In this document: positions 1 through 13,417 of the stretch, one piece after another
How the letters are laid out: the number at the start of each line of letters is the position of its first letter
Numbering within the stretch: position 1 is the first letter of the stretch
NCBI GenBank assembly: GCA_020723935.1
Contig: DYHY01000012.1
Span: forward strand, 18,860-35,875
DNA length: 17,016 nucleotides
Direction of reading: 5' to 3'
DNA from: Candidatus Micrarchaeum sp.
GTDB taxonomy: Archaea > SpSt-1190 > DYHY01
The notes under the pieces: model-generated
Seen by the model: only the letters and a program-made list of their open reading frames with translations
What the model was told of the DNA's origin: nothing
Databases searched by the model: none
Program-made: the position numbers and the translations under genes

Positions 1-73
1 CGTGGAAGCCGTACTTCTCCCTGTAGCCGTCCTTGAGGCCCCTCACCCTCTTCTCCTGCGCGCCGTATCTCAT
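1..73 (-). CDS. sufB: SufB, Fe-S cluster scaffold subunit (N-terminal 24 residues only)
   Basis: This is the 5' end of a leftward gene cut off by the window edge. The visible protein starts MRYGAQEKRVRGLKDGYREK and goes on to YGFH. A tyrosine-rich 'KYGF' stretch near the N-terminus is typical of SufB, the scaffold protein that builds Fe-S clusters with the SufC ATPase. The ATG overlaps the stop codon of sufC by four bases (ATGA), so translation is probably coupled. The assignment rests mostly on this position directly after sufC and only secondarily on the short peptide. SufD, which is a paralogue, is the alternative. Confidence 0.7.
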   Translation of the reverse strand, partial: MRYGAQEKRVRGLKDGYREKYGFH

Positions 74-855
74 TTCCGCCGGGGCCCCCCCCTTTCCCTG
101 AGCCAGCCGTAGCCCTTGGCTTCCAGGGTGCGCGCCAGCGCCGGCCCGCCGCTCCTGACGATCCGCCCGCCCAGCATGACGTGCACGTGGTCGGGGGCGA
201 GGTAGCGCAGGATCCTGTGGTAGTGCGTTATGACGAGCGAACCGAAGGACGGGCCGCTCATCCTCTTCACGGCGAGCGCGACGATCTTCAAGGAATCAAT
301 GTCTAGGCCCGAGTCGGTCTCGTCCAGGACTGCGATCTTGGGGGCGAGGAGCATCATCTGCAGGACCTCCGCCCTCTTCTTCTCGCCGCCCGAGAAGCCC
401 TCATTGAGGTACCGTTCTAGGAAGCCGGAATCCATTTTGAGGACCTTGAGCTTCTCCTCGACGATGTCCCTGAACTCTACGACCGAGAGGAGGTCGCCCC
501 TCTTCTCGGTCCTGCCCTGGACGCTGTTCATCGCGGAGCGCAGGAACCCAGAGAACGTGACGCCGGGAATCTCCGTCGGATACTGCATCGCGAGGAAGAG
601 GCCGGCCTTCGCCCGCTCGTCGGTCTCAAGCTTCGAGACGTCCTTCCCGCCGAAGATTATCCTCCCGTCCGTGACCTCGTATTTTGGATGGCCGAGTATG
701 GTGTTAGCGAGGGTGCTCTTCCCGCTGCCGTTGGGGCCCATTATCGCGTGGGCTTCGCCCTGCCGGACCGAAAGGTCCAGGCCCGTGAGTATCTCCTTGC
801 TTTCCACGCTCACGTGCAGGCCCTTTATCTCGAGGGAAAAGCCCGTTTTTGCCAT
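70..855 (-). CDS. sufC: SufC, ABC-type ATPase of the SUF Fe-S cluster assembly system
   Basis: Cytosolic ATPase that drives Fe-S cluster assembly on the SufB(D) scaffold. Counting from the ATG at 855 the protein has 261 residues, the usual SufC length. Visible motifs are Walker A GPNGSGKST (40-48), ABC signature SGGEKKR (155-161), Walker B with LDETDSGLD (177-185) and the H-loop ITHYHR (209-214). The 'DETDSGLD' form and FSGGEKKR are characteristic of SufC rather than of transporter ATPases. A TTG four codons upstream (867) is possible, but the TATA-like box at 886-894 places transcription start near 863, which favours the ATG. It is the first gene of a leftward operon and is followed by sufB with an ATGA overlap. 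Its promoter lies back to back with that of the divergent HxlR-type regulator. Confidence 0.95.
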   Translation of the reverse strand: MAKTGFSLEIKGLHVSVESKEILTGLDLSVRQGEAHAIMGPNGSGKSTLANTILGHPKYEVTDGRIIFGGKDVSKLETDERAKAGLFLAMQYPTEIPGVTFSGFLRSAMNSVQGRTEKRGDLLSVVEFRDIVEEKLKVLKMDSGFLERYLNEGFSGGEKKRAEVLQMMLLAPKIAVLDETDSGLDIDSLKIVALAVKRMSGPSFGSLVITHYHRILRYLAPDHVHVMLGGRIVRSGGPALARTLEAKGYGWLRERGGPRRK

Positions 856-885
856 AATTTGTAGCAAGTACAGTTTCTATACCGC

Positions 886-938: not shown

Positions 939-1268
939 ATGGCGCAACGGCAGCAGCATCAGTATCCTCAGCAGGAGCATCCGGACGCGGTCACCTGCCC
1001 GATCTTCGACATCCTCGCCGTCTTCGAGAAGAAGTGGGCACTGGCCGTCCTCAAGGAGATCTACCGCGGGACGAGCAAGTTCAACGACCTGAAGCGGCGC
1101 CTGCACGGGATAAACCCCTCCATCCTCTCGCGGCGCCTCGCGGAGCTGGAGAAGCGCCAGCTGATACAGCGGAAGGTCTCTGCGGGCAGGCCCGTCGCGA
1201 TCGAATATTCCCTCACCGAGAGGAGCCGCCACCTTTTCACATGCTGGCCGATGAAGAGGGGGAGCTAA
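939..1268 (+). CDS. HxlR/DUF24-family winged-helix transcriptional regulator (probably frameshifted near its 3' end)
   Basis: Residues 18-95 match the HxlR fold in order. VTCPIFDILAVFEKKW carries the N-terminal cysteine (C20). It is followed by a helix, SKFNDLKRRLHGINPSILSRRL (recognition helix region), LIQRKV, and a wing ending in YSLTER. In HxlR proteins such as HypR this first cysteine senses redox or electrophile stress, so a similar role is possible here. The gene is divergent from sufC with 83 bases between start codons, which suggests it controls suf or itself. After SLTERSRHLF the reading frame gives a short unconvincing tail (TCWPMKRGS) and stops. The -1 frame instead continues for about 55 codons into a zinc-ribbon-like sequence (1241-1405). 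Adding one base in the TTTT run at 1234-1237 would join the two into a 155-residue protein. Confidence 0.85.
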   Translation: MAQRQQHQYPQQEHPDAVTCPIFDILAVFEKKWALAVLKEIYRGTSKFNDLKRRLHGINPSILSRRLAELEKRQLIQRKVSAGRPVAIEYSLTERSRHLFTCWPMKRGS

Positions 1269-1405
1269 GCCCCCCGGGGGCTTTTCTGGTCCGTCCCTGC
1301 CCGCGCTGCGGGGCGCGGATGGCGAATATCAACGGCAGCTTCAGGTCGACATGCCGCAACTGCAGGTCCAAGGACTCTTGCTGCGACCAGGCTGGGCCAG
1401 CTTAG
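1241..1405 (+). pseudogene. Zinc-ribbon-like C-terminal segment, probably the out-of-frame end of the HxlR-type gene
   Basis: Read from the ATG at 1241 this frame gives 54 residues that include CPRC, 14 intervening residues, then CRNC, and a further CC pair. A Cx2C-x14-Cx2C spacing is what a zinc ribbon needs. It overlaps the 3' end of the HxlR-type gene in the -1 frame and has no promoter of its own that I can see. Two readings are possible: the tail of the regulator separated by a one-base loss, or a separate small zinc-ribbon protein translated by coupling. I favour the first, because joining at the T run gives a continuous helix (LTERSRHLFHMLADEE) as in other HxlR proteins. Confidence 0.5.
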
Positions 1406-1515
1406 ACCGCCGGTAGCTGGAGAAAATCGCCCGGCCCGCCAGCTGCTCTCACCCGTAGCCCATCCAGCGCCCCGCCGTCCGGCCGGAGCCGGATGCTCTG
1501 CTGAGCAAGCGCTAG

Positions 1516-3195
1516 CTATTCATAATTCATCCAGCCCATGTTGGACTTGATGCCGCGGTACACGCGGAAGAACGAGTTGTAGGAGAACCAGCTCGCGCGG
1601 CGCAGGCGCGTGTCGAAGGTCTTTGGCACGTCGTTCCCGAAGAACTCCAGGACCGGCGTCATGCCCGCGAGGAACTTCCCCCTCCAGTCTATCGCCGACC
1701 TGTAGACGCCCGCATCCCCCCCTGCCTTGGGGTTGAACCAGTCGGAAAGGCCCTTGACGATGGAGGCCTTGGCCTGCGCCGGGGTCTTGCCCTTCTCCAT
1801 TTCCTCGGCGCCTATCTCCTCGGCGAGCCTGCTTATCTCCGCCTTCTCCTCGGCCGTGAGCGACCCCTTGGCCTTGAGCTCCTTGTACCTGTCCTTGCTC
1901 CTCTCGTCCTTGGTCTGGGCGATGCCCATCTCGGCGAGGTCCGAGTCGTTGTACCCGCCGTAGGTCTTCATTATCGTTGCGAAGTCGTTGTTCTGGAGCG
2001 TTAGCTTGCCCTTGAGCTTCCTCTTGTCGTCCTCGTGCATGACGCCGTACGTTATTACCGTGAAGCCGCGCACGAACTTGTTCCCCTGCAGCTCCGGGTT
2101 GTAGGACATCAGGAGCTGGATCGTTATGCACGGGATCCAGGGCTTCATCCTGTCCATGACTATCGGCCACTTCTGCTCGGGGTCGTAGTACATCTCCGTG
2201 ACGGTGTAGGCCATCGGGGCGAACTGCGGGAACTCCTCGGCGAAGATGCCGAACTGGGCGTCCATCTCCTCGTAGGGGATTATCATCTTCTCCGCCTCCT
2301 GGATGTTCCTCGTCGCCCACCTCATGTAGAGCTGCAGGTTCGCCCTCTGCTGGTTGAGGTTGTTGACGATCGACTCGTACGTGCGCTGCACGAAGGACTT
2401 GTATTCGATGCGCCAGTTGATATATTCCTGGACCTTGCGCTTGAGGTAGTTGGCCACCGCCGGGTTGAGCTCCTCGCTCTTCACGAACTCCTCGGCCTGC
2501 TTCTCCATGTCGGCCTTGACGGCGTCCAACCACTTCCTTTGGAAGTCGCCCTCAGACTCCCTGTCGCCCTTCTTGAGCCCGAGCAGCTCCGGCTTCTTCT
2601 CGTCGAGGCGGTAGAACCACGTGAGCGCGCTCCTGACGATCGGCACTTGGTGGGCGAGGGCCGACCAGCTCCTCGACGGGCCGCCGTAGTTGTCCACGAA
2701 CAGGCCCTTCACCTGCTCGGGGCTGTTGTTCTGGAACGCGTTCCTCTGCTCGCGGATCTTTTCGAGGTCGCTTTCCAGGTTGAGTATGACTGTCTTGAGG
2801 GTCTGGACAGTGGCCATCATCTCGCGCGCGTCCTTCCTCTGGAAGGACTGCTTGCCGAGCATGTCGCCCTGGACCCTGCTCATGGGCGAGAAGGCGATGC
2901 CCTCGCGCACCTTGATGTATTCCCACCACAGGCCCGTCGTCCCGCACATGTAGTCGGCTATCGTGTGGAAGATGGGCTCGGGGAGCGGCACGCCGAAGAT
3001 GAGCGCGTGGGGCTGCCATTGGGCGTTGTCCCAGGTGTTCCAGCGGCCCCAGTAGCCCCATTTCTTCGCGAGGGGGTTGCTCGGGCTCGCGGAATAGACC
3101 CGTCCCTTGAGAGGCCCTGTCCCGGAGTCGTAATACATCTTCTCCAGGAAATCGTCGAGAGTGACTCTGCCTTGCTTGGGACCTTCGTCAGCCAT
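1516..3195 (-). CDS. Unrecognised 559-residue Trp-rich, helix-rich protein
   Basis: I do not recognise this protein. It has 559 residues and no signal peptide or clear membrane span, so it is probably cytosolic or peripheral. Residues 45-100 are very aromatic, with five Trp between 46 and 60 and a WW pair at 90-91. Residues 121-155 and roughly 218-305 are charged, long-helix sequence with coiled-coil character. Residues 430-475 form another charged helical stretch (EERS/KELKAKGSLTAEEKAE). The C-terminus is aromatic again and ends NMGWMNYE. No Walker, Cys-pair or other catalytic motif is evident. A TATA-like box lies 31 bases before the ATG. Two coiled-coil genes lie directly upstream on the same strand, so a structural complex of the three is plausible. 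It ends in TAG, and codon use matches its neighbours. Confidence 0.9.
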   Translation of the reverse strand: MADEGPKQGRVTLDDFLEKMYYDSGTGPLKGRVYSASPSNPLAKKWGYWGRWNTWDNAQWQPHALIFGVPLPEPIFHTIADYMCGTTGLWWEYIKVREGIAFSPMSRVQGDMLGKQSFQRKDAREMMATVQTLKTVILNLESDLEKIREQRNAFQNNSPEQVKGLFVDNYGGPSRSWSALAHQVPIVRSALTWFYRLDEKKPELLGLKKGDRESEGDFQRKWLDAVKADMEKQAEEFVKSEELNPAVANYLKRKVQEYINWRIEYKSFVQRTYESIVNNLNQQRANLQLYMRWATRNIQEAEKMIIPYEEMDAQFGIFAEEFPQFAPMAYTVTEMYYDPEQKWPIVMDRMKPWIPCITIQLLMSYNPELQGNKFVRGFTVITYGVMHEDDKRKLKGKLTLQNNDFATIMKTYGGYNDSDLAEMGIAQTKDERSKDRYKELKAKGSLTAEEKAEISRLAEEIGAEEMEKGKTPAQAKASIVKGLSDWFNPKAGGDAGVYRSAIDWRGKFLAGMTPVLEFFGNDVPKTFDTRLRRASWFSYNSFFRVYRGIKSNMGWMNYE

Positions 3196-3222
3196 ATTGG
3201 CTAGAGTAATCCCTCCCTGGTG

Positions 3223-3230
3223 CTTAAATA
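3223..3230 (-). promoter_or_regulatory. TATA-like box of the 559-residue protein gene
   Basis: The minus strand reads TATTTAAG, preceded by a purine-rich CGAAAAAGG that could act as the TFB recognition element. It is centred 31 bases before the ATG at 3195. The gene therefore has its own promoter although two genes lie upstream on the same strand. Confidence 0.5.
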
Positions 3231-3274
3231 CCTTTTTCGGCCAAAACCGCGGACTGCCTTCCCTTTTGTCCGGC

Positions 3275-3703
3275 TCAGTCCTTCAGCGCCTCCAAAAGCG
3301 CCGGATTTACTTTGAGCGGCCTCCCCGCTAGCTCTAGGAGCGCCGCACCGTACCTCTCCTCCTGGCCGCCCCGGTCCTTGAGCGAGGAGATCTCGTCCTC
3401 GATGCGCGCGATCTTGGCGTCCGTCTGGGAGATGCGGTAGAAGATCTCGTCGAGGCGGCTCTCCAGGCCCTCGAACCTGTCGGCGATCGCCCGCGGATGG
3501 TCCTGCGTTATCGCCTTCTCGGCGCGCTCCAGGCGCTCCTTGAGCTTCTGGGTGTTCCCCGAAGCGCTGTGGGCGAGGACCTTTAGGTCCGCGCGCGTGA
3601 GCTCCAGCTCCTCGCGCTGCTTCGAAACCACCTCGGCGAGGCGCAGGACGAGCGTCGCAACCACCGCACCTCCCTTCTCGCCCGCTTCCCCTCCGTCGCC
3701 CAC
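3275..3703 (-). CDS. Short coiled-coil protein A (142 residues), likely paralogue of the gene upstream
   Basis: Function unknown. After a Gly/Glu-rich start, residues 14-110 are mostly heptad-like helix (KQREELELTRADLK, KLKERLERAEKA, FEGLESRLDEIFYRISQTDAKIARIEDEISSLK). This is followed by a linker and the C-terminal motif KVNPALLEALKD (131-142). The neighbouring upstream protein also ends in KVN followed by a matching amphipathic segment, and both share LRL-x-EV-x-x-K near the N-terminus (here 20-28). The start is a GTG at 3703, preceded by a good Shine-Dalgarno sequence GGAGGG (3713-3718, spacing 9). This supports the start and internal translation initiation in a transcript shared with the upstream gene, whose stop lies 18 bases away. 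It is probably a partner of the 559-residue protein. Confidence 0.8.
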   Translation of the reverse strand: MGDGGEAGEKGGAVVATLVLRLAEVVSKQREELELTRADLKVLAHSASGNTQKLKERLERAEKAITQDHPRAIADRFEGLESRLDEIFYRISQTDAKIARIEDEISSLKDRGGQEERYGAALLELAGRPLKVNPALLEALKD

Positions 3704-3712
3704 GTGCTTCTT

Positions 3713-3718
3713 CCCTCC
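3713..3718 (-). promoter_or_regulatory. Shine-Dalgarno sequence for coiled-coil protein A
   Basis: GGAGGG on the minus strand, 9 bases before the GTG at 3703. It decides this non-ATG start. It also shows that internal operon genes here can use Shine-Dalgarno initiation while first genes look leaderless. Confidence 0.6.
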
Positions 3719-3721
3719 GGA

Positions 3722-4072
3722 TTATTGCTCGAGGTGCTTGAGTATCCCCTGGTTGACCTTCGGGGACGCGGGCTGCTGCTGCTGTTGCTGCTGTTGCGCG
3801 GCCCTTGTCTCGCGCAGCTTGCTCTCGAGATCCGAGACGCGCGCGAGGAGGACCGCCTTCGTCGAGTCAAACTCGGACTTGAGGCCGTCCAGCTCCGCCT
3901 TGGCCGCGGACGCATCCGACGTCTTCCTGTCGAGGGCGCTTATCTGCGACTGGAGGCCGCCGAGGCGCTTGTTGAGCACCTCTATGAGCCTGAGCATGAA
4001 CTCGTTGAGTTCAATGTCCTGCTTCTGCTGCTGCTGGGCCTGCTGCATCTGCATCTGTCTTTGGTCTGCCAT
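3722..4072 (-). CDS. Short coiled-coil protein B (116 residues) with two poly-Gln tracts
   Basis: Function unknown. The N-terminus is rich in Gln and Met (residues 4-18). Then come LRLIEVLNK (27-35), a long heptad-like helix (38-91, including LKSEFDSTKAVLLARVSDLESKL), a run of eight Gln (93-100) and the C-terminal motif KVNQGILKHLEQ (105-116). The layout is the same as in coiled-coil protein A: an N-terminal LRL-x-EV helix, a coiled coil, a linker, then an extreme C-terminal KVN motif. The two are therefore probably diverged duplicates. The Gln run is encoded by a CAG/CAA triplet repeat and may vary in length. The ATG at 4072 is the first good start. A TATA-like box at 4166-4176 implies a leader of about 70 bases, longer than for other genes here. 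Confidence 0.8.
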   Translation of the reverse strand: MADQRQMQMQQAQQQQKQDIELNEFMLRLIEVLNKRLGGLQSQISALDRKTSDASAAKAELDGLKSEFDSTKAVLLARVSDLESKLRETRAAQQQQQQQQPASPKVNQGILKHLEQ

Positions 4073-4165
4073 TATCCGTCTAACACCTTTGCTTTCCTGC
4101 AGAAGGATTCCGGAATCCGGGGAGGAACCGCAATCTCTTCCTGCGAAGGCAGACCAATTGCCGCG

Positions 4166-4176
4166 TTTTATTTATC
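4166..4176 (-). promoter_or_regulatory. TATA-like box upstream of the coiled-coil pair
   Basis: The minus strand reads GATAAATAAAA. It is centred about 99 bases before the ATG at 4072, so the 5' leader would be about 70 bases. No nearer candidate is visible. Confidence 0.35.
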
Positions 4177-4258
4177 CGTTGCCCCGGTTTTACGAAAATG
4201 TTTTAAATTGTGACTTGCTAGTGGTTTCACGTCCGGAAAACAGTACGACGGGCTTGTC

Positions 4259-4636
4259 ATGGAATTCTACGAGATAAGCGGCGACCTCGCCGACCTGGAG
4301 GCGGCGGTTCCCGGCTCCCTCGTCGCTTCCTTGGGGCGCAAGGACTTGGAGTTTGAGCCCAGGGGCGCGGGGCCGGCGGTGAAGCTCGTCCTCCCGCCGA
4401 CCGCCGGATACGACGCGGCCTAGAGCGAGATTGCAAAGGAGACATCCCCCTTCGTCCTAGTCGGCCTCGGGACGCGAAGGCCGGCCGAGTTCGGGATTTC
4501 CTACGGCCCGGAGCGCGACATTGGCCCGGCATCTTACGTCGTCTACAGGCCGGAGGGCAAGCCTTCTGCGGCGGAGATGGACACCTGCCTCAACCCCGGC
4601 CACTACCAAGTCGAGGTCTGCCACCTGCGCGAATAG
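4259..4636 (+). pseudogene. Unrecognised gene interrupted by an in-frame TAG (codon 55 of 125)
   Basis: Read from the ATG at 4259 the protein begins MEFYEISGDLADLEAAVPGS and reaches GYDAA at codon 54. It meets TAG at 4421-4423 and then continues in the same frame as SEIAKETSPFVLVGLGTRRP to a terminal TAG at 4634-4636. Third-position GC bias and normal-looking protein continue on both sides, so the two halves were probably one gene of about 124 residues. A single C-to-T change from CAG would explain the stop. A TATA-like TTTTAAATT (4201-4209) lies about 54 bases before the ATG. No family was recognised. Alternatives are a true short protein of 54 residues, readthrough, or a sequencing error. 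Confidence 0.45.
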
Positions 4637-4694
4637 GCGGGAGAACTTGTGGTTTTGGGCAAGGCATTTAACCGGCCCGCGCGGCCCGCGCCCA

Positions 4695-5067
4695 CCCGCA
4701 ACGAGGGCTACCCCCGAGGACGGAGTGTAAGCTAAAGCACGTTAGGAGGAGACGGGGGCGTTAGTACTGCGGGAAACAGGCCCCGATCGGGCGCCGCCGA
4801 AAATTGGAATGTGTAGCGGCGCCTGTGACGGGCCACCACCGATCTGTTGAAAACAGCCCTTCGCCGCCCGGAGCGCAAAAGGGCGGCGCCGATACGCCCC
4901 GACTGCGCTCCACCTAGGAAATCGCGCGACGACAATGGGACGAGGTAAATCAAGAGGGAAGAGTCCTGCGACAACGACGGTTCCCCCCTTTCTGCCCTTT
5001 CAGGCTTTCAGTTCCGCGAAGGCAAGTCCCCCTCCGGACTTACCTCGCCTGGATCCTCCGTAGAGGA
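4695..5067 (+). ncRNA. Candidate structured non-coding RNA
   Basis: No convincing protein gene spans 4640-5260, yet this stretch has nested complementarity. An outer helix pairs 4743-4751 with 4908-4916 (9 pairs, one A-A mismatch). Inside it, 4755-4760 pairs with 4895-4900. That encloses three local hairpins: 4790-4797 with 4816-4823 (8 pairs), 4844-4848 with 4852-4856, and 4862-4869 with 4881-4888 (8 pairs). A second domain is closed by 4941-4948 with 5040-5047 (8 pairs) and contains 4956-4960 with 4981-4985. A hairpin at 5054-5067 follows. A weak TATA-like CATTTAAC (4664-4671) could start an RNA near 4695. I compared it with RNase P RNA and SRP RNA but did not find their signature sequences in order. 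The strand is inferred from the promoter only, and the ends are guesses. GC-rich sequence forms some helices by chance, so covariation is needed. Confidence 0.35.
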
Positions 5068-5131
5068 CCCGTGACGATATACGCACCGTTACTATATAAT
5101 AGTTGTGTATAATATCCTGTAATGCTGCGCT

Positions 5132-5150
5132 TGCGAAACATTTTTTCGCA
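5132..5150. repeat. Inverted repeat TGCGAAA / TTTCGCA
   Basis: The arms 5132-5138 and 5144-5150 are perfectly complementary with a 5-base spacer. It lies in the AT-rich gap between the candidate RNA and the gene starting at 5265. It could be a hairpin in RNA or an operator-like site. Confidence 0.4.
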
Positions 5151-5184
5151 TTTCCGCAACATACGCGTAGATTTTCGCGCCGCT

Positions 5185-5206
5185 CCTCCGGCGCGCGCGC
5201 CGGAGG
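5185..5206. repeat. Perfect 22-base GC palindrome
   Basis: Positions 5185-5195 (CCTCCGGCGCG) are exactly complementary to 5196-5206. It lies about 30 bases upstream of the TATA-like box of the gene starting at 5265. It could be an operator, a very stable hairpin ending a transcript from the left, or a cruciform. No poly-T follows directly, so a classical terminator is not favoured. Confidence 0.6.
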
Positions 5207-5233
5207 GCTGTTCCGCCCGCTTCCTGCATAACA

Positions 5234-5242
5234 ATTAAAAGG
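5234..5242 (+). promoter_or_regulatory. TATA-like box of the gene starting at 5265
   Basis: ATTAAAAGG, centred 27 bases before the ATG at 5265. It implies a leaderless transcript and supports that start codon. Confidence 0.5.
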
Positions 5243-5264
5243 GAGATTATGTATTCATTTCAGA

Positions 5265-5815
5265 ATGGCAACAAAAATATTCGAGTCATACGCATCCGCA
5301 GTTGATGCGTCTTACGAGGGCGCGGCGCGGACGGCTGTAGCGAAGGCGGCCGGACAGAACGTCAGGCACGCGGTCAACGTGAGGCTGGGCCCCGGGCGGG
5401 GGGAATACAGCACGCTCTACCCGAATTTCACGAAGGCCGATGGGGACGCGGGGCTCGTCCCTAACGCCCTGGTCGCGCAGACGGTCGGGAACATCGGCGA
5501 CTGGAAGGACGGCCTGGACCGGGAAGCCTTCACGGCTCTCGTCGGCGAGCTCTCCGGGAAGGGGCGTACTGGGAGGCGCCGGAGGGGGGCGACAGCCCCG
5601 AATTCGACATCCACGGCGGAGGCTTGGGCCAGCAGGTCCTCACCGAGCTCGCGGGGACGTTCGGCAGGAAATATCCGGCGCGGGCCCTCGCAGGCTACCG
5701 CTTCGGGCTAGACGCCGAGGACAGCGAGAGACTGATCGAGTTCCAGGATTACGTCCCGAGCAAGGCGGCCATGGTCAGGCTCGCGAAGGTCCTTGTCCAA
5801 GGCAAGGTCCGATAA
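5265..5815 (+). pseudogene. Unrecognised gene with one -1 frameshift (about 183 residues if restored)
   Basis: The protein starts MATKIFESYASAVDASYEGA and reads well to VGELSGKG near 5564. Beyond that the same frame becomes Arg-rich nonsense and stops at 5711. The -1 frame then takes over with AYWEAPEGGDSPEFDIHGGG and continues to VPSKAAMVRLAKVLVQGKVR, ending with TAA at 5813-5815. Adding one G to the GGGG run at 5561-5564 makes a continuous 183-residue protein. No signal peptide or membrane span is seen and no family was recognised. It converges with the gene ending at 5818, with two bases between the stops. Pseudogene, programmed -1 slippage at G-GGG and sequencing error cannot be separated from one sequence. 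Confidence 0.55.
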
Positions 5816-5817
5816 GG

Positions 5818-6390
5818 TCAGTCGGGCAGCCTCAGCCGCTCGGGCGTCGTCTTATTCACGATGTCCATGAAGCGCCTCGCAAGGGTCCCGCCTCGCGCGT
5901 TCACGCCGAAGACGTCCCTGGAATTTATGTAAAAGTCCACGTGCTCGCCCGTGACGATCGAGAAGGTCTGCGCGGTGACGCCCGCCCCCAGGGCCGTCGT
6001 GAAGCTCACGTTCTCCAGCTCCTTCCTGAGGCGCGCGGCGAGGGGCAGGGCGATGAATATGCGCATCACGTAGTTGTCCATCCCGATCCTCCCGACCCTC
6101 GCGACGCTCGCAGCCTTGATCTCGCCCGCGGGGAGGGCTATCTCCTTTGTCTCCTCCTCGGCCCCGGCGAAGCGCAGGACGACGCCGTCGTCGCTTGCTA
6201 CCATCTCGCCTATCTCGGCCGAGTTGAAAGAATAGATCTTCATGGAGATTTCCTGGGGGACTCCCTGGGGGACTCCCTGCGATGCGCTCTCCGGAGCCGC
6301 GGATTGCCCCGCGTTCCGCGCCGGATGCTCCGGACCCGCTACCGCCACCGAAGGTCCGCCCGTTTCCTCGGCTTCCTCGTTTTGCTTCAT
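5818..6390 (-). CDS. Unrecognised protein with disordered N-terminus (190 residues)
   Basis: I do not recognise the family. From the ATG at 6390, residues 1-48 are low complexity (Glu, Ala, Pro, Gly, Gln) and probably disordered. They include a tandem GVPQGVPQ encoded by a 12-base direct repeat (6253-6276). Residues 50-190 look folded and alternate short strands and helices (MKIYSFNSAEIGEMVASDDG, VMRIFIALPLAARLRKELEN, HVDFYINSRDVFGVNARGG). There are no Cys pairs, nucleotide-binding loops or membrane spans. A GTG at 6402 could also start it, but the TATA-like box at 6412-6420 is centred 26 bases from the ATG at 6390, which fits a leaderless start there. An internal ATG (6243) would give only the folded domain. 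It is convergent with the broken gene ending at 5815. Confidence 0.75.
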   Translation of the reverse strand: MKQNEEAEETGGPSVAVAGPEHPARNAGQSAAPESASQGVPQGVPQEISMKIYSFNSAEIGEMVASDDGVVLRFAGAEEETKEIALPAGEIKAASVARVGRIGMDNYVMRIFIALPLAARLRKELENVSFTTALGAGVTAQTFSIVTGEHVDFYINSRDVFGVNARGGTLARRFMDIVNKTTPERLRLPD

Positions 6391-6411
6391 CAGGCTTATC
6401 ACGCCCCCCCG

Positions 6412-6420
6412 ATTATTTAT
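6412..6420 (-). promoter_or_regulatory. TATA-like box of the leftward gene starting at 6390
   Basis: The minus strand reads ATAAATAAT, centred 26 bases before the ATG at 6390. This decides that start over the GTG at 6402. Confidence 0.5.
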
Positions 6421-6497
6421 GGCCTACACAACGCAAGGCATCGCCGGGAGCGCAATCTCCGAAAACCGCAAATGGCCCTTTCCCGGACTAAGCAAAG

Positions 6498-6508
6498 ATT
6501 TATTATTA
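6498..6508 (+). promoter_or_regulatory. TATA-like box of the nucleotidyltransferase gene
   Basis: ATTTATTATTA centred 28 bases before the ATG at 6531, giving a leaderless transcript. Confidence 0.5.
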
Positions 6509-6530
6509 CGCCATAATACTTGTCTCTCCC

Positions 6531-7670
6531 ATGAGAGCGCTCATACTTGCGGGGGGGTACGGGACGCGCCTGCGGCCTCTCACGCTGGAGATGCCCAAGG
6601 AGCTCCTACCAATAGTTGACAAGCCCGTCATAGAATACCTGCTGGAGAACCTCGCCAAGCACGGCATAAGGGACGTGCACATCTCGGTGAACAACGTCTT
6701 TGCCGAGGCGCTCAGGAAGCACATCGGCGACGGGGCGAGGCTGGGCCTGCGCTCGGTTGATTTCATAGTCGAGAACAGCGGCGGCGAGCACGGGAAGCTG
6801 GGCGCCGTCGGGGCGCTGGAATTCGTGGGAAAGAAGCTTGGGAAGGACGCCGACTACCTGATAGTGGGCGCCGACAACTTCTCCCCTGACTTCGACTTCT
6901 CCGCGATGATGGAATCGCACAAGCGGAGCGGGTGCGGGGTCACGATCGCCCTGCACAAGCTCAAGCAGAAGGAGCTCCTCTCGTTCCTGGGCGTCGCCGA
7001 GATACTCCCGAGCGGCCGCGTCCTGCGCTTCCGCGAGAAGCCCAAGGACCCGGTCTCCGACCTGATATCAACCGCCATCTACATCGTCCACCCTGCGTTC
7101 TTCCACGAGCACGTCCCGGCGTACGTCGAGAAGAAGCGGAAGGAGGGCGTCAAGCCCGACAACCTCGGCGACATCTGGGAGCACATGCTCAAGGCCGGCC
7201 ACCTCATCAACGGTTACGTCTCGACGCAGTTCTGGATGGACATCGGCAAGTCCCAGGGATACCTCCTCGCCCACGCGCACATGATGGAGAAGAACTACGA
7301 GAACCGCGTCGTCATAGACAAGCAGGCGGTCGTCGGGGGGAGCGTTGATGCGCACGGGCCGGTCCTTGTCAGCGCGGAGGCGAGGCTCGGGAAGGGCGTC
7401 GTCCTCGGGCAGTTCACACACATAATGGACGGCGCCGAGGTGGGCGACGGCACGAGCATCGAGAGCTCCCTTGTCTTCCCGAACGCCAAGATCAAGCCCG
7501 GCTGCTTCCTCAGGAACTGCATTGTCCCCAACGGGACGATTGTGCGCGCGGGGACCTTGATAGACGAGGGCTACCAGATAGTGGGCGCCGCCCTTCCGGC
7601 CGCGATCCCCGCCGGGCGCCACGCCTCCGCCGGGAACGGCGGCCACAGGCTTTCCGGAAGCGTCATCTGA
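6531..7670 (+). CDS. Sugar-phosphate nucleotidyltransferase (NDP-sugar pyrophosphorylase)
   Basis: Makes an activated NDP-sugar from an NTP and a sugar 1-phosphate, feeding cell-surface glycan or glycosylation pathways in the cytosol. The 379-residue protein opens with LILAGGYGTRLRPLT (4-18), the NTP-binding signature, followed by PKELLPIVDKPVIEYLL with the catalytic-site lysine K23. VGADNF near residue 113 supplies the metal-binding aspartate, and FREKP is also visible. The C-terminal part from about 255 on has hexapeptide-like repeats (VVGGSVDAHGPVLVSAEARLG), typical of a left-handed beta helix. The sugar and nucleotide cannot be read from sequence. Mannose-1-phosphate guanylyltransferase and glucose-1-phosphate thymidylyltransferase-like enzymes are the nearest types. 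The gene is intact although codons 8-9 lie in a run of seven G. The next, broken gene may start only six bases after its stop. Confidence 0.9.
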   Translation: MRALILAGGYGTRLRPLTLEMPKELLPIVDKPVIEYLLENLAKHGIRDVHISVNNVFAEALRKHIGDGARLGLRSVDFIVENSGGEHGKLGAVGALEFVGKKLGKDADYLIVGADNFSPDFDFSAMMESHKRSGCGVTIALHKLKQKELLSFLGVAEILPSGRVLRFREKPKDPVSDLISTAIYIVHPAFFHEHVPAYVEKKRKEGVKPDNLGDIWEHMLKAGHLINGYVSTQFWMDIGKSQGYLLAHAHMMEKNYENRVVIDKQAVVGGSVDAHGPVLVSAEARLGKGVVLGQFTHIMDGAEVGDGTSIESSLVFPNAKIKPGCFLRNCIVPNGTIVRAGTLIDEGYQIVGAALPAAIPAGRHASAGNGGHRLSGSVI

Positions 7671-7676
7671 TAAGCG

Positions 7677-8312
7677 ATGGCAGCTTCTGCGAAAGCGCCG
7701 ATTCCGGTCGCCCCCTTTCTGAGGTCTTTTCCGCCGGGACGATGGACGAGGCGGCGCATAGCGTCGCCAGGGGGCTTCCCTATTACGGGCGCTTCGTCCA
7801 GCTGCCCGACGATTCCCTAGCGGGAACCCCGCTCCCCGGGCGGTTCGTTGATCACATCTACGGCTCCGAGCTTTCGGCGGTGCCCGCGCGCGATGCGGCG
7901 GCGGGGAGCGCGCGGCTCGTCCTCCCCCTGGAGCGGGGGCTGGACGGCTCGAGGGATTTCTCGGGCGAAGCCGTCGGCCGCTTCTTCTCCGAGCTGGAAC
8001 CAGTCCTCGCGGGCGGGGCTATTCGGCGGTCCTTGAGGAGACAGACCCTCTGCCCGGGTTCCCCGAGCTGGTCTACGCCGTCTCGCGCGGCGGGATCCGC
8101 GTTGCGACGATCCGCGGCTACAGCATCGGGCCCCTGGAGCGGAAATCCGGATGCGTCTGCGTGTCCGTGCCGATGGCCCTCCCGATGCGAGGGACGGCGC
8201 ACCTCCCGGCGCACATCTCCTAGCCCTGGACGCCCTGGCGGAGCTATCCGAAATCTCGGCCGCCGCGGCCGAAACCCTGGCGAAGGGCTACTTGAAGCAC
8301 GACCTCTGCTAG
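7677..8312 (+). pseudogene. Unrecognised gene with two or three -1 frameshifts (about 212 residues if restored)
   Basis: Protein-like sequence passes through three frames. MDEAAHSVARGLPYYGRFVQ runs from 7742 to ELEPVLAGG. After a GGGG run (8015-8018) it continues in the -1 frame as YSAVLEETDPLPGFPELVYA to VPMALPMRG. Near GGG 8191-8193 it shifts -1 again to LALDALAELSEISAAAAETL and ends KGYLKHDLC with TAG at 8310-8312. A further start (ATG 7677, MAASAKAPIPVAPFLRSF) joins the front if one T is added to TTTT at 7727-7730. The ATG at 7677 is six bases past the nucleotidyltransferase stop, which suggests a common transcript. No family was recognised. The C-terminus is an Ala-rich helix. With this many breaks it is probably a pseudogene unless the sequence is poor here. 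Confidence 0.5.
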
Positions 8313-8381
8313 GCCCCCGCGGGCCGGGCGGCATTTTTCCGTAAACTCGCCGACGGTTATCGCAAAAGGCGCCTGGAAAGG

Positions 8382-8387
8382 TTAAAA
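8382..8387 (+). promoter_or_regulatory. TATA-like box of the methyltransferase-like gene
   Basis: TTAAAA centred 25 bases before the ATG at 8409 and 28 before the adjacent ATG at 8412. The 28-base spacing is the one usual in this window, so 8412 may be the real start. Confidence 0.4.
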
Positions 8388-8408
8388 CCCGGGAAAACAT
8401 CCTCTCCT

Positions 8409-9079
8409 ATGATGGGAGGAAAAACGGGGAGGGAGCGGATCTTCGAACTCTTCGAAGAGCTGAAGCGGGAGGCCGCAGAGGCCGGGACGTTCTACCAGCC
8501 GAAGCCCAAGCCCTATCTGGAGGACGTCCTCGCGGAAATCGGCGCGGGCGACAGGGTCCTCCTGATAGGCGGCGGCGAGGAGACGCCGGAATTCCGCGAG
8601 AAGGCGGGCGAAGTCGTGTGCGTCGACAACTACGCCGGCTCCGAGCACGTCAACGTCGTCGCGGACGCCGAGAACGGCGGCCTCGCGGGGCTCGTCGAGG
8701 AGGGGAGCTTCGACGCGGCCGCGATGTTCAACATCGCGGAGATATCCTACGACCCGGTGGGCCTCGCGGAGCAGGCGAACCGCGCCCTCAAGCCCGGCGG
8801 GAAATTCTACTGGGGCGAGATTATGGGGCGAAGCTCATGGGCTACGGGATGATGTACGGCATGCGGCCGGACGGGACCTTCACGTGGGAGGACCTGGACG
8901 CGGAGCTGCTCGCACGAGGCCTCATGAGGTGTGACGCATACGGGGAGGTGTTCTCCTTGGATTCCGCGGGCGGGTTCGCGATACTCGAGAAGGGCGGCTT
9001 CCCCCCGCAGGAGATGCGGCTCGTGAAATACCGCAGCGAGAGGGGGGAAGCGGGCCTCTTCATTGCCAGGAAGGGCTGA
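8409..9079 (+). pseudogene. SAM-dependent methyltransferase-like gene with one -1 frameshift
   Basis: The first part (to about 8828) reads as a class I Rossmann methyltransferase. GDRVLLIGGGEE (47-58) is the SAM-binding motif I, VVCVDNYAGS (69-78) gives the acidic residue after strand 2, FDAAAMFNIAEIS (101-113) is motif IV, and ALKPGGKFYWGE (126-137) is the typical post-motif loop. After GEIMG the frame stops at 8852, while the -1 frame continues as AKLMGYGMMYGMRPDGTFTW to EAGLFIARKG, with TGA at 9077-9079. One extra G in GGGG (8825-8828) restores 223 residues, a usual size. The substrate is unknown. It is convergent with the kinase gene, with one base between the stops. If the truncated form is made it lacks the C-terminal strands of the fold. 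Confidence 0.65.
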
Positions 9080-9080
9080 G

Positions 9081-10130
9081 TCAGAGGTCGAGCTCGTATG
9101 CGAGGAACGCCGCGATGAAGCTGTCCCCGAGGCCCACGCTCGCCTTGAGCTTCCTCGCCTTCCAGGCAGGGGCGATTATGCGCACGATGTCCCCTGAGCA
9201 TTCCGACGAGCAGGGCCCGTCCCTCCGCTCTATCATCCCGTTCTCTATCACGCAGCCCACCTCCTCCCTGCACGGGTCGTGGCCCAGGACCCCCTTCGTC
9301 GCCGCGACGGCGGACGCGAAGCCCGCGGCCTGCTCCTCCAGCTCCTTGGAATAGGGCCAGGCCTTCCTGGAATAGGCGATCTCCACAAAATCCCTGCCGT
9401 GGATTATGACGCGCCCCGCGCCCGTGAGCTTCATGAGCTTGTCTCTCCCCAGCTCCTCAGCCTCTTCCTCGTTGCACCCGAAGCTCGAGAAGCTCCCCCG
9501 CGCCTTCCTTATCGCGCGCAGGGCGAAGGCTTTGGGGCAGGAGCCGAATTCGAGATGCACCGGGACGCCCGCCTTGAGGATTTTCCTCGCGAGGGCCGCG
9601 GGCCCGGAGAAGGATCTGGCGAGATGGATCCCCCCGACGAGCGCGACGCCGACGTTACCGGCACGCAGCTCCGAGGCGGCGCGCCTCTCGAACTTCGGGA
9701 AGATCCTCCCTCCCGCGGCGTCCGGATCGTGGGTCAGTATTGCCCTGTTGTCCCTTTTCGCGCGCAGGAAACCCCCCGCCCGCCATTCCAGGACGATGTG
9801 AACCGCGGGCGGGCCCTCGCTCCCGACGAGCTCGACGTTCCTCGAGAAGAATTTCCTCAGGCGCCCGGAAACGGGGGCGTTGCAGACGGTCGGGACGCCG
9901 AGATTCCCGAACGCGTTCGCGGAATTCCCGGCCTGGCCTCCCAGGCGCATCTTCGCCTTGGCCGGAATCTCCAGGGGCTTGTCCAGGTTAGTTTCGAAGC
10001 CCGTGCCCGCGCGGGCGCAGGACCTTATCTTGTCCTTGATTCTCTTGGGACAGCCGTCGAGGATCTGCTCCGAGAGCATAACTACGGCGTCTATGCAAGA
10101 ATTGGAGAAACAGACGGCTTTGCGGGTCAA
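9081..10130 (-). CDS. ADP-dependent phosphofructokinase/glucokinase-like sugar kinase (short form)
   Basis: Belongs to the ribokinase-like fold. LGGQAGNSANAFGNLG (63-78) is the substrate-side glycine motif, and VGLGDSFIAAF (332-342) holds the catalytic base D336 in the GLGD form. Between them, VHLEFGS followed by GCNEEEAEEL and VIIHGRDFVEI resembles the HFE, N-x-x-E and IHTH-type segments of the archaeal ADP-dependent kinases, which phosphorylate glucose or fructose 6-phosphate in modified glycolysis. At 349 residues it is about 100 shorter than typical members, so a different sugar or nucleoside substrate is possible. A generic PfkB kinase is the alternative. The start is probably a TTG at 10128-10130 that overlaps the stop of the upstream gene (TTGA), implying translational coupling. 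The next in-frame ATG would remove the first strand. Confidence 0.7.
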   Translation of the reverse strand: MTRKAVCFSNSCIDAVVMLSEQILDGCPKRIKDKIRSCARAGTGFETNLDKPLEIPAKAKMRLGGQAGNSANAFGNLGVPTVCNAPVSGRLRKFFSRNVELVGSEGPPAVHIVLEWRAGGFLRAKRDNRAILTHDPDAAGGRIFPKFERRAASELRAGNVGVALVGGIHLARSFSGPAALARKILKAGVPVHLEFGSCPKAFALRAIRKARGSFSSFGCNEEEAEELGRDKLMKLTGAGRVIIHGRDFVEIAYSRKAWPYSKELEEQAAGFASAVAATKGVLGHDPCREEVGCVIENGMIERRDGPCSSECSGDIVRIIAPAWKARKLKASVGLGDSFIAAFLAYELDL

Positions 10131-10486
10131 GGCGCCTTGGCCAGTTCCTCTAGCTCTATCGTCGGCGACGCGTTCTCGACGGCATCGATCTTCGCGTGCG
10201 CGACCGACAGCCAGTTGGAGAATGAATCGTACGCTTTTGCGTACTTCTTCGAGGACGGGCGGTAGAGGTATCCCCGCTCAACGAGCTTCCCGAGGAGCGT
10301 GCGCAGCCACTTCCTGTTCGTGGGCTCCACGTTCAGGGATTTCATGACCTGATTGAGCTTGAATTCCTCCTTCACCTTGAAATTCTTCTTTATGAAGGCG
10401 AGAGCCGCGGCGACCTTGCTGTACTCCGCTTTGTGCGTCGTGAGGCCAAGGTGGTCGAGGACAACCAGCGACGATTCGTCGGCCAT
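10127..10486 (-). CDS. Small winged-helix-like protein of unknown function (119 residues)
   Basis: No family was recognised. Residues 22-80 have the helix pattern of a winged helix: KVAAALAFIKKNF, then FKLNQVMKSLNV, then NRKWLRTLLGKLVERGYLYR with a basic recognition-like helix and a short wing. The C-terminal 35 residues are helical and acidic. There is no Cys. A DNA- or RNA-binding role, for instance a small transcription factor, is an inference from the fold pattern only. It is the first gene of a leftward pair: its TGA overlaps the TTG start of the ADP-dependent kinase gene, so it may regulate or accompany that kinase. A TATA-like box 30 bases upstream supports the ATG at 10486. Confidence 0.8.
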   Translation of the reverse strand: MADESSLVVLDHLGLTTHKAEYSKVAAALAFIKKNFKVKEEFKLNQVMKSLNVEPTNRKWLRTLLGKLVERGYLYRPSSKKYAKAYDSFSNWLSVAHAKIDAVENASPTIELEELAKAP

Positions 10487-10511
10487 AATCTTACTTATAA
10501 AGGGCCAACTT

Positions 10512-10520
10512 GCATATATG
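10512..10520 (-). promoter_or_regulatory. TATA-like box of the winged-helix/kinase operon
   Basis: CATATATGC on the minus strand, centred 30 bases before the ATG at 10486. A second T/A-rich match (10495-10503) lies too close to the start codon to serve that ATG. Confidence 0.45.
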
Positions 10521-10649
10521 TCTTTGTTTCAGCTCCAAAGTGTCAATAACCAAACCGGCTGTTTTGGCCAGATAATGGTCTTATATTTGCTGCAAGGAAT
10601 AGCTCCGGCCCGCCTAGGATTTGCATCCTGCGAACCAGGATTTTGCGGC

Positions 10650-11006
10650 TTACTGGGCCGCGCCTTCTGAAGGCGGCTCCTTTTCCGGCGCCTCGTCGGC
10701 CTGGACGCGCGGCTCCTCGCCCGGGACGGCTTCCCCTTCCTGGTTGAGCGTCACGCCCTCTGCCTCGAATTCCTCATCCCCTTCGGCGAAGATGGGCTTC
10801 TCCTCGCCGACCGCGACGACCGGGATCTTGGAAGGAGTCAGAAGAGATGAGATGTAGCCAGCGATCCTGTTCCTCAGGCGGCGCGTGAGCTTGAGCTCCT
10901 CCAGGGACTTCTTGTTCTGGTCGAAATCCCGCGAGAACTTCTCCGGATATTTCTCGATCATCTTCTTCGCCACGCGCTTGACGAGCAGGATGCGGACTTT
11001 TCCCAT
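10650..11006 (-). CDS. rps17e: Ribosomal protein S17e with long acidic C-terminal extension
   Basis: Small-subunit ribosomal protein found in archaea and eukaryotes. Residues 1-55 match the family clearly: MGKVRILLVKRVAKKMIEKY, then FSRDFDQNKKSLEEL and TRRLRNRIAGYISSLL. Archaeal S17e normally ends soon after this point at about 60-70 residues, but here 118 residues are encoded. The extra 60 are acidic and low complexity (EEFEAEGVTLNQEGEAVPGE, then PEKEPPSEGAAQ), probably disordered. The frame is open and compositionally normal to the TAA, so this does not look like readthrough. It follows rpoK with five bases between them, as one transcript. A frameshift at the end of the core cannot be excluded. 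Confidence 0.9.
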   Translation of the reverse strand: MGKVRILLVKRVAKKMIEKYPEKFSRDFDQNKKSLEELKLTRRLRNRIAGYISSLLTPSKIPVVAVGEEKPIFAEGDEEFEAEGVTLNQEGEAVPGEEPRVQADEAPEKEPPSEGAAQ

Positions 11007-11011
11007 CTTGA

Positions 11012-11248
11012 CTAGAATGCGACCTCCACCCTTTCCGATTCGCCGTCCGGATACGACCTGATGACGAGCATTTTTATCGCGCCGGCTGTGAGCTCCTCGC
11101 GCGCGATCTGCACGGGCTCTATGGACTTGGTCTTCACAAGGATCGGAGCGCCGAGGGACACTTGGAGCGCCCGCGCGCCCAAGATTCTCGCGCGCTCGAA
11201 ACGACTGAGTGCCGACGAAGCCTTGGTTGCCGTGCTTTTCGCTCCCAT
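11012..11248 (-). CDS. rpoK: DNA-directed RNA polymerase subunit K (Rpb6/omega homologue)
   Basis: Small assembly subunit of archaeal RNA polymerase. The 78-residue protein carries the diagnostic segment SRFERARILGARALQVSLGA followed by PILV, then an REELTAGAIKMLVIRSYPDG-type C-terminal strand. Length and motif order match archaeal RpoK. It starts at the ATG at 11248 with a TATA-like box centred about 32 bases upstream, implying a leader of about 5 bases. It ends in TAG, five bases before rps17e, so the two genes are likely co-transcribed. Many archaeal genomes place rpoK among ribosomal and transcription genes, consistent with this pair. Confidence 0.95.
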   Translation of the reverse strand: MGAKSTATKASSALSRFERARILGARALQVSLGAPILVKTKSIEPVQIAREELTAGAIKMLVIRSYPDGESERVEVAF

Positions 11249-11275
11249 CTGGTGAAGCTTCCAGCGAGAAATGGC

Positions 11276-11284
11276 CTTTTTAAG
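11276..11284 (-). promoter_or_regulatory. TATA-like box of the rpoK-rps17e operon
   Basis: The minus strand reads CTTAAAAAGG over this site. The same TTAAAAAGG form precedes the gene starting at 12801, and a close variant precedes L37Ae. Confidence 0.5.
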
Positions 11285-11336
11285 CGTTACCGTGCGCCGC
11301 AGGCCGTCCCGGCGGGATTCTCGGGGGTCTTTTTTC

Positions 11337-11999
11337 TCAGTTGCGGTCCATCACCTTGCGGTAGACCTCTACTATCTCCTTCCCCTCGGGAGGGAGGGCG
11401 AGGCCCGTCCTGTCGAAGACCTCCTTTGCGGTCAGCACGCCCTCGTCGGTCCAGGTGACCTCGTAGCGGAACGCGCTTCCCGCGTCCTTGCCGCCGCGCA
11501 TGCCGGCCTCGACGAGCATCGTCGCCGTCTCCAGGCCCCTGTGGCCGGGCATCTGGTAGCGGAAGAGCTTCTGCGCCTGCGAGGGCGTCCCGAAAGCCTC
11601 GGCGGCCTAGGCTTCCGGCGCGCCGGCATCGAACGGAAGGTAGCGCGTGAGGCTCCGCAGGCCCATGACTTCCACCGACGGGTCGAACTTGACGTACGCG
11701 ACCCTGCCGCCCTTGGAGACGCGCACGTCGCCGTTGGTCCACGCCACGCCCGCCGCGCGGAGGAGGCTCGCCTCCATTATCGCCCGGTACTGCTCGACGT
11801 TTGGGTGCTTGTAGAAGCTTTCGAAGAGCCTGGCCGGCCTCGGGAAGGAATGCACTTCGCCGGCCTGCGCAGCGGCGAACGAGGCGTTGTGATATGAGCT
11901 CCTCGCCTTGTGCGCGAGGTTCAGGAGGACGTGCGCGGGTGCGCGCTCCTCGACCGCCTTTGCGAAATCCCTCTCCGTCTCATTTCTCGAAATCCGCAC
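11337..11999 (-). pseudogene. Unrecognised gene with one in-frame TAG (codon 131 of 220)
   Basis: From a GTG at 11999 the frame gives 130 residues starting with a basic, charged segment (RISRNETERDFAKAVEERAP) and ending LPFDAGAPEA. TAG follows at 11607-11609, and the same frame then continues AAEAFGTPSQAQKLFRYQMP through EVTWTDEGVLTAKEVFDRTG to VEVYRKVMDRN, stopping at 11337. Both halves have the codon bias of real genes. A CAG-to-TAG change would explain the break. No frameshift is needed. No family was recognised and there are no metal or nucleotide motifs. It lies upstream of rpoK on the same strand, but rpoK has its own promoter. Readthrough at TAG is possible, but TAG is a regular stop in this genome. 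Confidence 0.5.
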
Positions 12000-12302
12000 G
12001 CGCCACCAATCCGGGTTCCCCGGTCGAGGGCTGCGGCCGCTGCCTTGTAATATTCGCCCTTTTTCCGTGCCGCCGGAGTGGCGCCGATGAAGCCCTTTGA
12101 GGCTTCGCCTTGATCAAGCTCTCCAGAGGCCCGCCATCGGCGCGACGAGGCTCGCGCCCCGCCCTCGTCCGGAACCGCGGGGTCCTGCCCCCCTGTTCTG
12201 CGCCGTTCCTGACCCCCGCAATTGTGCCCGTCCCTCAGGACGGGCCTGCGCCCAAGTTATTGCTCGCGCTGCCTGGAGAATCTTGCGCGTATGTTCCGCC
12301 GA
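12000..12302. other. Gene-free GC-rich block with four tandem hairpins
   Basis: No convincing protein gene fills this gap. It holds four successive inverted repeats. Arms 12089-12094 and 12101-12106 give 6 pairs, extended by GGCG/CGCC outside. Arms 12139-12145 and 12152-12158 give 7 pairs. Arms 12177-12184 and 12211-12219 give 8 pairs with one bulged C. Arms 12227-12233 and 12238-12244 give 7 pairs with a CTCA loop. A structured RNA on either strand, or a 3' untranslated region of sepF read leftwards, would fit. I found no tRNA, RNase P or SRP signature. An AT-rich spot at about 12046-12056 may be the promoter of the leftward gene starting at 11999. Confidence 0.35.
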
Positions 12303-12680
12303 CTAGACGCGCTCAAGGCCCACCATCGGCGGGACGAGGATCACCCAGTTGTCGTCAATGGCGGCGAGGTCCGCCCCGGTTGCGGCGCAGTGCGTCTTGA
12401 ACCGATTTATCGCCCGCTTGAGCTCCGTCATATCCTTCTCCTTGAGGGGCGCTATCTTCACAAGGAGGATCCTATGCGAGCTCCTCAGGGATTCGAGTAT
12501 CCCCTCCGTGTCCTGGAACTTCTCCAAGGTCACGACCTGCAGGGCCATTTTCCCCTTCTCGCCGGACCTGTCCTTGACGTCTATCTGGACGACCGGAGGC
12601 TTTGCCGGCGCCTTCTTATTGTCGCCCTTCGACTTACCTGTGAACCTCTCGAACATTGCCTTGATGTGTTTCACGACCAT
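12303..12680 (-). CDS. sepF: SepF, membrane anchor of the FtsZ division ring
   Basis: Archaeal SepF tethers FtsZ to the membrane at mid-cell. The 125-residue protein starts with MVVKHIKAMFERFTGK, an amphipathic helix like the membrane-targeting segment of SepF. A Lys/Ala/Pro-rich linker (16-30) follows, then the SepF/DUF552 domain (about 47-125). That domain contains MALQVVTLEKFQDTEGILES, ILLVKIAPLKEKDMTELKRA and a final strand VILVPP, with the expected beta-alpha-beta order. The length is normal. The ATG at 12680 is preceded by a TATA-like CTTAAATAA (about 12722-12731), leaving a leader of about 20 bases. It is divergent from a broken gene at 12801. No ftsZ lies in the window. It ends in TAG. 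Confidence 0.85.
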   Translation of the reverse strand: MVVKHIKAMFERFTGKSKGDNKKAPAKPPVVQIDVKDRSGEKGKMALQVVTLEKFQDTEGILESLRSSHRILLVKIAPLKEKDMTELKRAINRFKTHCAATGADLAAIDDNWVILVPPMVGLERV

Positions 12681-12766
12681 TGCTTACAATTGCACCAGCG
12701 GCAGTGAAACATCTTCGGTTATTTAAGACTTTATCCCCCCGCGCGGGGCCCTCCAGCGATGAATTG

Positions 12767-12773
12767 TTAAAAA
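12767..12773 (+). promoter_or_regulatory. TATA-like box of the gene starting at 12801
   Basis: TTAAAAA followed by GGCGCC, centred 31 bases before the ATG at 12801. An intact promoter in front of a broken gene suggests that the damage is recent, or that the gene is still expressed. Confidence 0.45.
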
Positions 12774-12800
12774 GGCGCCCCGGCGCCGCGCAAGGCAGGG

Positions 12801-13417
12801 ATGGGGGAAGAGAAGACGGGCTTCCTGCGGGCGGAGCTGGGGAAGACGGCGGGCCTCTGGACTATTTTGAGGACACCGGCGCCCCCCAAGACGGCCCCTC
12901 CTACTGGGACGAGCCCACCGACCCCGAGATTGCCGCGCTTGACGGCGAGGATTCCTTCGTGCGCCTGCTCGGCGTGAGGTTCAAGCTCCCGGCGGATATC
13001 GGCGAGGACGCTCTTCGGGCGATAAACGACGCGGTGACCTCGCCCGGATCGTATTCCAAGTTCAGGCTCGGGATGGCGCCCGGCTACGAGGTCCGCGAGG
13101 GCGGCGACGGGATAAACATCCTGCTCTCCTTCCCCTGCAGGGAGCGCGAGATAGCGGAGGCCGTCAGGGAGAGCGAATATTTCACGAGGCTCGTCTGAGG
13201 GATTGCCTGCCCGAAGCTTGAGAGCATCTCTTTGCCCGAGCGCGCTGGGCTGGCGGCGGACAACGCGATCGACAGGGAGAAGACGTACAAGGTGAACTGC
13301 GCGCGCCTTCCAGCCCACATGCTCCGGGACTGGCAGATGCCGGCCTGGCTCTATCCGAAGGGATACGTGCGCACGGCGCGCGACGAGGCGCCGGCGAAAG
13401 GCGGCTACGTCAATTGA
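12801..13417 (+). pseudogene. Unrecognised gene with one -1 frameshift and one in-frame TGA
   Basis: The start MGEEKTGFLRAELG reads well but soon turns to nonsense. The -1 frame carries EDGGPLDYFEDTGAPQDGPS onward through FVRLLGVRFKLPADIGEDAL to AVRESEYFTRLV, then TGA at 13196-13198. The same frame goes on with GIACPKLESISLPERAGLAA to RDEAPAKGGYVN and a final TGA at 13415-13417. One G added to GGGG (12839-12842) restores the first break, and a CGA-to-TGA change would explain the second. The intact protein would have about 205 residues, with an acidic N-terminus and no cysteine motif or membrane span. No family was recognised. It could instead be two overlapping small genes, the second starting at the TTG at 13232, but the continuous frame argues against this. 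Confidence 0.5.

Follow-up and report, generated by a model that had tools for sequence, protein, structure and literature searches.

Interrupted accessory genes in a Candidatus Micrarchaeum draft genome are most likely recent pseudogenes

Interrupted genes in the window

We analyzed a 17,016-nucleotide stretch of the draft genome of Candidatus Micrarchaeum sp. (the window; G000:C3:18860-35875, where G000 denotes this genome), in which an initial annotation had pointed to seven homopolymer runs where one added base would restore a continuous protein in accessory genes, and we extended the analysis to the whole genome, across all 47 contigs. G000 comprises 1.14 Mb, is 91% complete, has a GC content of 63% and carries archaeal-type genes; the draft assembly contains N gaps, 10 or 100 bases long. 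We trained a codon-usage model on G000 by self-selection of open reading frames (ORFs), and a seven-state Viterbi hidden Markov model (HMM) permitted both frame changes and stop read-through, at a fixed penalty each, with the frame changes then being sorted into ordinary gene junctions, N gaps, and frameshifts. After each window site, all three frames were scored with the codon model, under which no more than 0.2% of the wrong frames of intact genes score above 8 bits. Broken pieces were searched with an X at the breaks, and no base was restored anywhere.

The runs lie where they had been placed, and five of the seven shifts are backed by the frame that follows them: +38.8 bits after 5561 (other frames, -38.7 and -91.4), +13.5 bits after 8015 (-53 and -43), +8.1 bits after 8191 (-19 and -33), +44.3 bits after 8825 (-63 and -56), and +64.0 bits after 12839 (-61 and -121). 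The shift at 1234 is ambiguous, its downstream frame scoring -7.5 bits versus about -29 in the other frames, and that at 7727 is not required, ATG 7742 being a possible start of the gene and the one at which the HMM begins it. At 8825, the upstream frame ends with TGA 8850-8852, overlapping ATG 8849, and thus two overlapping genes instead of one shifted gene are formally possible. The methyltransferase domain match extends to the very end of the upstream piece, and the piece after the break would be the C-terminal part of the same protein; a match to solved methyltransferase structures across the site was not found.

Every supported shift in the window is one base short, as had been claimed. 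However, the breaks are not all alike, since three in-frame stops had been overlooked (TAG 4421, TAG 11607 on the minus strand, and TGA 13196), each flanked by coding signal. Nor is the uniformity of the shifts significant, because five would be alike in direction with a chance of 5 to 16% given the genome-wide mix. The run of seven G residues at 6551 to 6557 and the core genes of the window are indeed intact. The features are collected in Table 1.

Table 1. Interrupted genes and intact controls in the window (positions are those of the window) and the secD gene elsewhere in the genome
Feature	Position	Strand	Lesion or state	Support
sufC	70..867	-	Intact core gene; internal control	TIGR01978, 338.7 bits, full profile
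HxlR-type regulator	939..1405	+	Possible one-base-short shift at TTTT 1234-1237, uncertain; a zinc-ribbon tail would follow it	PF01638, E = 1.5e-16 on upstream ORF
ORFan gene	4259..4636	+	In-frame TAG 4421-4423	HMM read-through; coding signal of 28 and 19 bits on either side
ORFan gene	5265..5815	+	One base short near GGGG 5561-5564	HMM switch at 5560/5561, 37 and 40 bits; no relative in 150 genomes
Sugar-nucleotide nucleotidyltransferase	6531..7670	+	Intact, with G7 run 6551-6557; internal control	PF00483, E = 4e-42; one open frame
ORFan gene	7742..8312	+	One base short near GGGG 8015-8018 and near 8191	HMM and frame scores
Class I S-adenosylmethionine (SAM) methyltransferase	8409..9079	+	One base short near GGGG 8825-8828	Methyltransf_11, E = 3.9e-6 upstream
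ORFan gene	11337..11999	-	In-frame TAG 11607-11609	HMM read-through; flanking coding signal of 60 and 57 bits; no relative in 150 genomes
ORFan gene	12801..13417	+	One base short near GGGG 12839-12842; in-frame TGA 13196-13198	Same-frame coding signal resumes after TGA, 21 bits
secD	G000:C31:29317-30741 (L156)	-	Sole lesion among the 209 best-conserved genes	Just outside the core-like set

Elsewhere in the window, the minus strand encodes an intact 559-residue protein (1516 to 3195) that has a strong coding signal (395 bits) and matches no Pfam or NCBIfam family significantly, and an intact kinase resembling ADP-dependent phosphofructokinase/glucokinase (9081 to 10130; PF04587, E = 7e-19). A 628-base intergenic stretch (4637 to 5264) lacks coding signal. 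It was considered as a structural RNA, but the region from 4640 to 5260 has no Rfam match and folds no better than its shuffles; it may hold an unrecognised RNA.

Frameshifts and nonsense codons across the genome

Genome-wide, 38 of the 68 supported frameshifts are one base short and 30 are one base long; hence, the proposed rule that the genes are always one base short fails outside the window. The strong frameshifts called by the HMM on the 47 contigs divide similarly (54, with 29 short and 25 extra). When lesions were implanted in intact G000 genes, 44% of deletions, 79% of insertions, 46% of TAG, 57% of TGA and 50% of TAA codons were recovered, and, after correction for this sensitivity, deletions are about twice as frequent as insertions. 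Both kinds concentrate in homopolymers: the longest run at short sites averages 3.97 bases versus 3.02 expected (none of 500 random sets was as high), and that at extra-base sites averages 3.40 versus 2.97 (P = 0.002). With 34 internal nonsense codons added to these shifts, at least some 89 of the 1,154 genes are broken (about 8%), and 8 genes have two or more shifts.

For comparison, we examined most (694 kb) of G001, the only available genome of the same family, as well as a class-level set of nine genomes besides G000. The density of strong shifts is 5.4 per 100 kb of coding sequence in G000 versus 1.3 in G001, where the sensitivity of detection is somewhat lower (36 to 47% of implanted lesions of all kinds and 43 to 47% of frameshifts recovered). 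No close relative of G000 was found in the collections searched, the contig search yielding only a distant 47-residue match. A shared +1 motif, GCC TTY C TTY, seemed striking by eye at three or four sites; we do not claim it, because at C27:24428 the alignment to the paralog agrees with a C run that has gained one C. Most pairs of genes split in the same frame look like ordinary neighbors, and in many of them G001 alignments cover the halves separately.

Conserved genes are spared

We defined as core-like the 121 genes (117 kb) with a strong match in G001. These carry no lesions, versus 12.5 expected (P = 1.6 × 10−6), whereas genes without a G001 match carry 10.2 shifts and 5.0 TAG codons per 100 kb. 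The two groups are interleaved on the same contigs, core and broken genes lying at a median distance of 3.3 kb, and for about half of the broken genes, the same contig has a core-like gene no more than 3 kb away.

For about 25 shifts, spread over 20 genes, a match to a known family, to an intact paralog or to a homolog in G001 contains or adjoins the site. The homologs are continuous at the bridged sites, a comparison for which the ORFans of the window have no relatives. The lysine epsilon-aminotransferase (C38:2802-4118) is one base short at one site and one base long at another, both within a single match of about 430 residues (E = 5 × 10−109), and the breaks in a malic enzyme, an MFS transporter, an ABC-2 permease (three shifts) and a class I/II aminotransferase lie within recognisable Pfam domains. 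For a radical SAM protein, two P-type ATPases and others, continuous paralogs in G000 or homologs in G001 can be aligned across the breaks. One P-type ATPase (C34:4662-7344, minus strand; L048) combines two +1 shifts with several TAG codons and has a continuous paralog elsewhere in the genome, while a glutamate dehydrogenase matches solved structures across both of its TAG codons and has an intact paralog of 49% identity. Frameshifts are also more frequent in TAG-bearing genes than expected (5 versus 1.8, P = 0.03).

The broken genes are therefore probably recent pseudogenes, formed as dispensable genes decayed by slippage and nonsense mutation. Once a gene was no longer under selection, its short homopolymer runs would gain or lose single bases by slippage and nonsense mutations would accumulate as well, while conserved genes in between remain intact. 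The window is a sample of a genome with a lesion of this kind in at least 89 of its 1,154 genes. Relaxed selection is the likely cause, and the broken products are presumably non-functional. The broken genes have the marks of pseudogenes, namely, a disrupted frame, seen relative to an intact homolog in the 20 genes with alignments and from codon statistics in the ORFans of the window; the sparing of strongly selected genes, with secD as the exception; and mixed lesions, sometimes several in one gene. Of the explanations listed in the initial annotation, slippage decay of unselected genes is thus the one upheld by the sparing of core genes, the concentration in homopolymers, and the broken enzymes, some with intact paralogs. 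Core sparing, the fewer shifts in G001 and the breaks in known enzymes weigh strongly against random sequencing error, phase variation, and programmed -1 frameshifting.

The share of broken genes is at the high end of, yet within, archaeal reports: pseudogenes make up as much as 8.6% of the coding sequences of Saccharolobus solfataricus in the figures of van Passel et al. (2007) that are given in PMC8211752. As far as that account goes, the S. solfataricus pseudogenes resemble ours in their share and in having shifts at short homopolymer tracts. They differ in that their tracts are A/T rich, whereas G000 has 63% GC, the tracts in the window are mostly G, and the nonsense codons are nearly all TAG.

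An excess of amber codons

Several observations weigh against interpreting the interruptions as decay. All lesions were called from the assembled sequence, and the broken window genes are mostly ORFans, the lesions of which rest on codon statistics, not homology. The internal nonsense codons comprise 32 TAG, 2 TGA and no TAA, a skew beyond mutational supply, from which 63 to 68% TAG is expected (P = 3 × 10−5 to 3 × 10−4). Finally, secD, which is essential and present as a single copy in G000, contains an in-frame TAG at codon 42 (CCC TAG GGC) but no other defect. At this position, Trp is found in the class members G006 and G009, and Arg in G001. TAG codons were also encountered in secD of the class members G004 and G007, but these vanish without the last 35 query residues and are most likely natural ends.

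Local context bears on this skew. The TAG lies in CCTAG or CTAGG in 21 of the 32 cases, where 26% is expected (P = 4 × 10−6; P = 2 × 10−4 versus the TAG codons at gene ends), and the residue at the TAG, where a homolog shows one, is often Trp or Gln, which would fit a CCWGG hotspot. In Escherichia coli lacI, amber hotspots occur at the 5-methylcytosine of CCWGG (Dcm) sites. The 21 contexts in G000 are likewise those that CCAGG or CCTGG would yield; however, no C5-methylase (PF00145) was found in the 91% complete sequence of G000, which makes such chemistry hypothetical here. It is conceivable, although we consider it rather unlikely, that UAG in CTAGG or CCTAG is leaky in this lineage even though no suppressor tRNA is dedicated to it, and that an in-frame TAG is thereby tolerated in otherwise intact genes such as secD, or else that an unusual CCWGG-directed mutational process without a C5-methylase turns nearly all nonsense mutations into amber.

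A broader proposal, that UAG is partly read through, so that TAG-bearing genes such as secD and glutamate dehydrogenase still work and only the frameshifted genes are dead, is also unlikely. It draws on the preponderance of TAG (32 of 34), which is not a matter of detection, since implanted TAG, TGA and TAA were recovered about equally well; on the Trp of G006 and G009 in place of the TAG of an otherwise intact secD; and on the many TAG genes without another lesion. However, TAG closes 442 of the 1,093 HMM gene ends, the replaced residues vary (Trp, Gln and others), TAG genes carry excess frameshifts, and the CCTAG/CTAGG context suggests a mutational hotspot. Moreover, we found no tRNA with a CTA anticodon in G000, even with introns allowed, and no PylS above the cut-off in its 91% complete sequence. 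A 'tRNA-Stop (tta)' predicted by ARAGORN with a 32-base intron (L004/C1:7985-8093, minus strand) fits, in the Rfam alignment, a tRNA-Lys(TTT) with an anticodon-loop intron. Read-through is possible in single cases such as secD.

Sequencing error, recoding, and phase variation

Homopolymer miscalls in a draft metagenome assembly could give false frameshifts, and both the homopolymer enrichment of the lesion sites and the draft state of G000, with its N gaps, are compatible with this. Such error should strike core genes equally; yet all 117 kb of them are free of lesions, although they are closely interleaved with the broken genes, as described above. The core genes retain about 1,275 runs of four or more bases, the G7 run at 6551 is intact, and nonsense codons of the substitution type stand beside the indels. 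Local sequencing error, which the initial annotation had also entertained, is therefore quite improbable.

We regard as very unlikely a programmed ribosomal frameshift, -1 at G-GGG and +1 elsewhere, that yields full-length proteins. The usual -1 slippery site is X-XXY-YYZ, and the one proven cellular archaeal case, as described in PMC8211752, is the alpha-L-fucosidase of Saccharolobus solfataricus, at A-AAA-AAT (Cobucci-Ponzano et al., reviewed there). Like that gene, ours are interrupted archaeal genes in which one frame is regained by a -1 shift at a homopolymer, and 5561, 8825 and 12839 do sit at NNG-GGG in the zero frame. In contrast to it, none of the seven window sites has the heptamer, which occurs at 4 of 38 short sites genome-wide (1.5 expected); 390 in-frame NNG-GGG sites in core genes show no shift; and 30 of the 68 shifts are +1. 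Where these shifts fall, paralogs and family members read on without a break, and some genes carry several lesions of mixed kind.

Phase variation, in which changes in run length would switch accessory genes on and off, could account for transport genes being among those broken and for sites in runs, but it is the least credible explanation, as there is no long repeat tract at the shifts, the window tracts being mostly 4 bases and hence too short to switch at a high rate, and the longest run averaging 3.4 to 4.0 genome-wide, while many broken genes are metabolic enzymes and several have two or three lesions, beyond repair by a single switch.

Implications

Genuine decay is thus the most likely cause of the interruptions in this draft genome, ahead of sequencing error and of recoding. 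Core-gene sparing, the mix of directions, and intact paralogs separate these three even without reads. Should the amber skew prove real and non-mutational, it would point to tolerance of UAG decoding in an archaeon without the known machinery for it.

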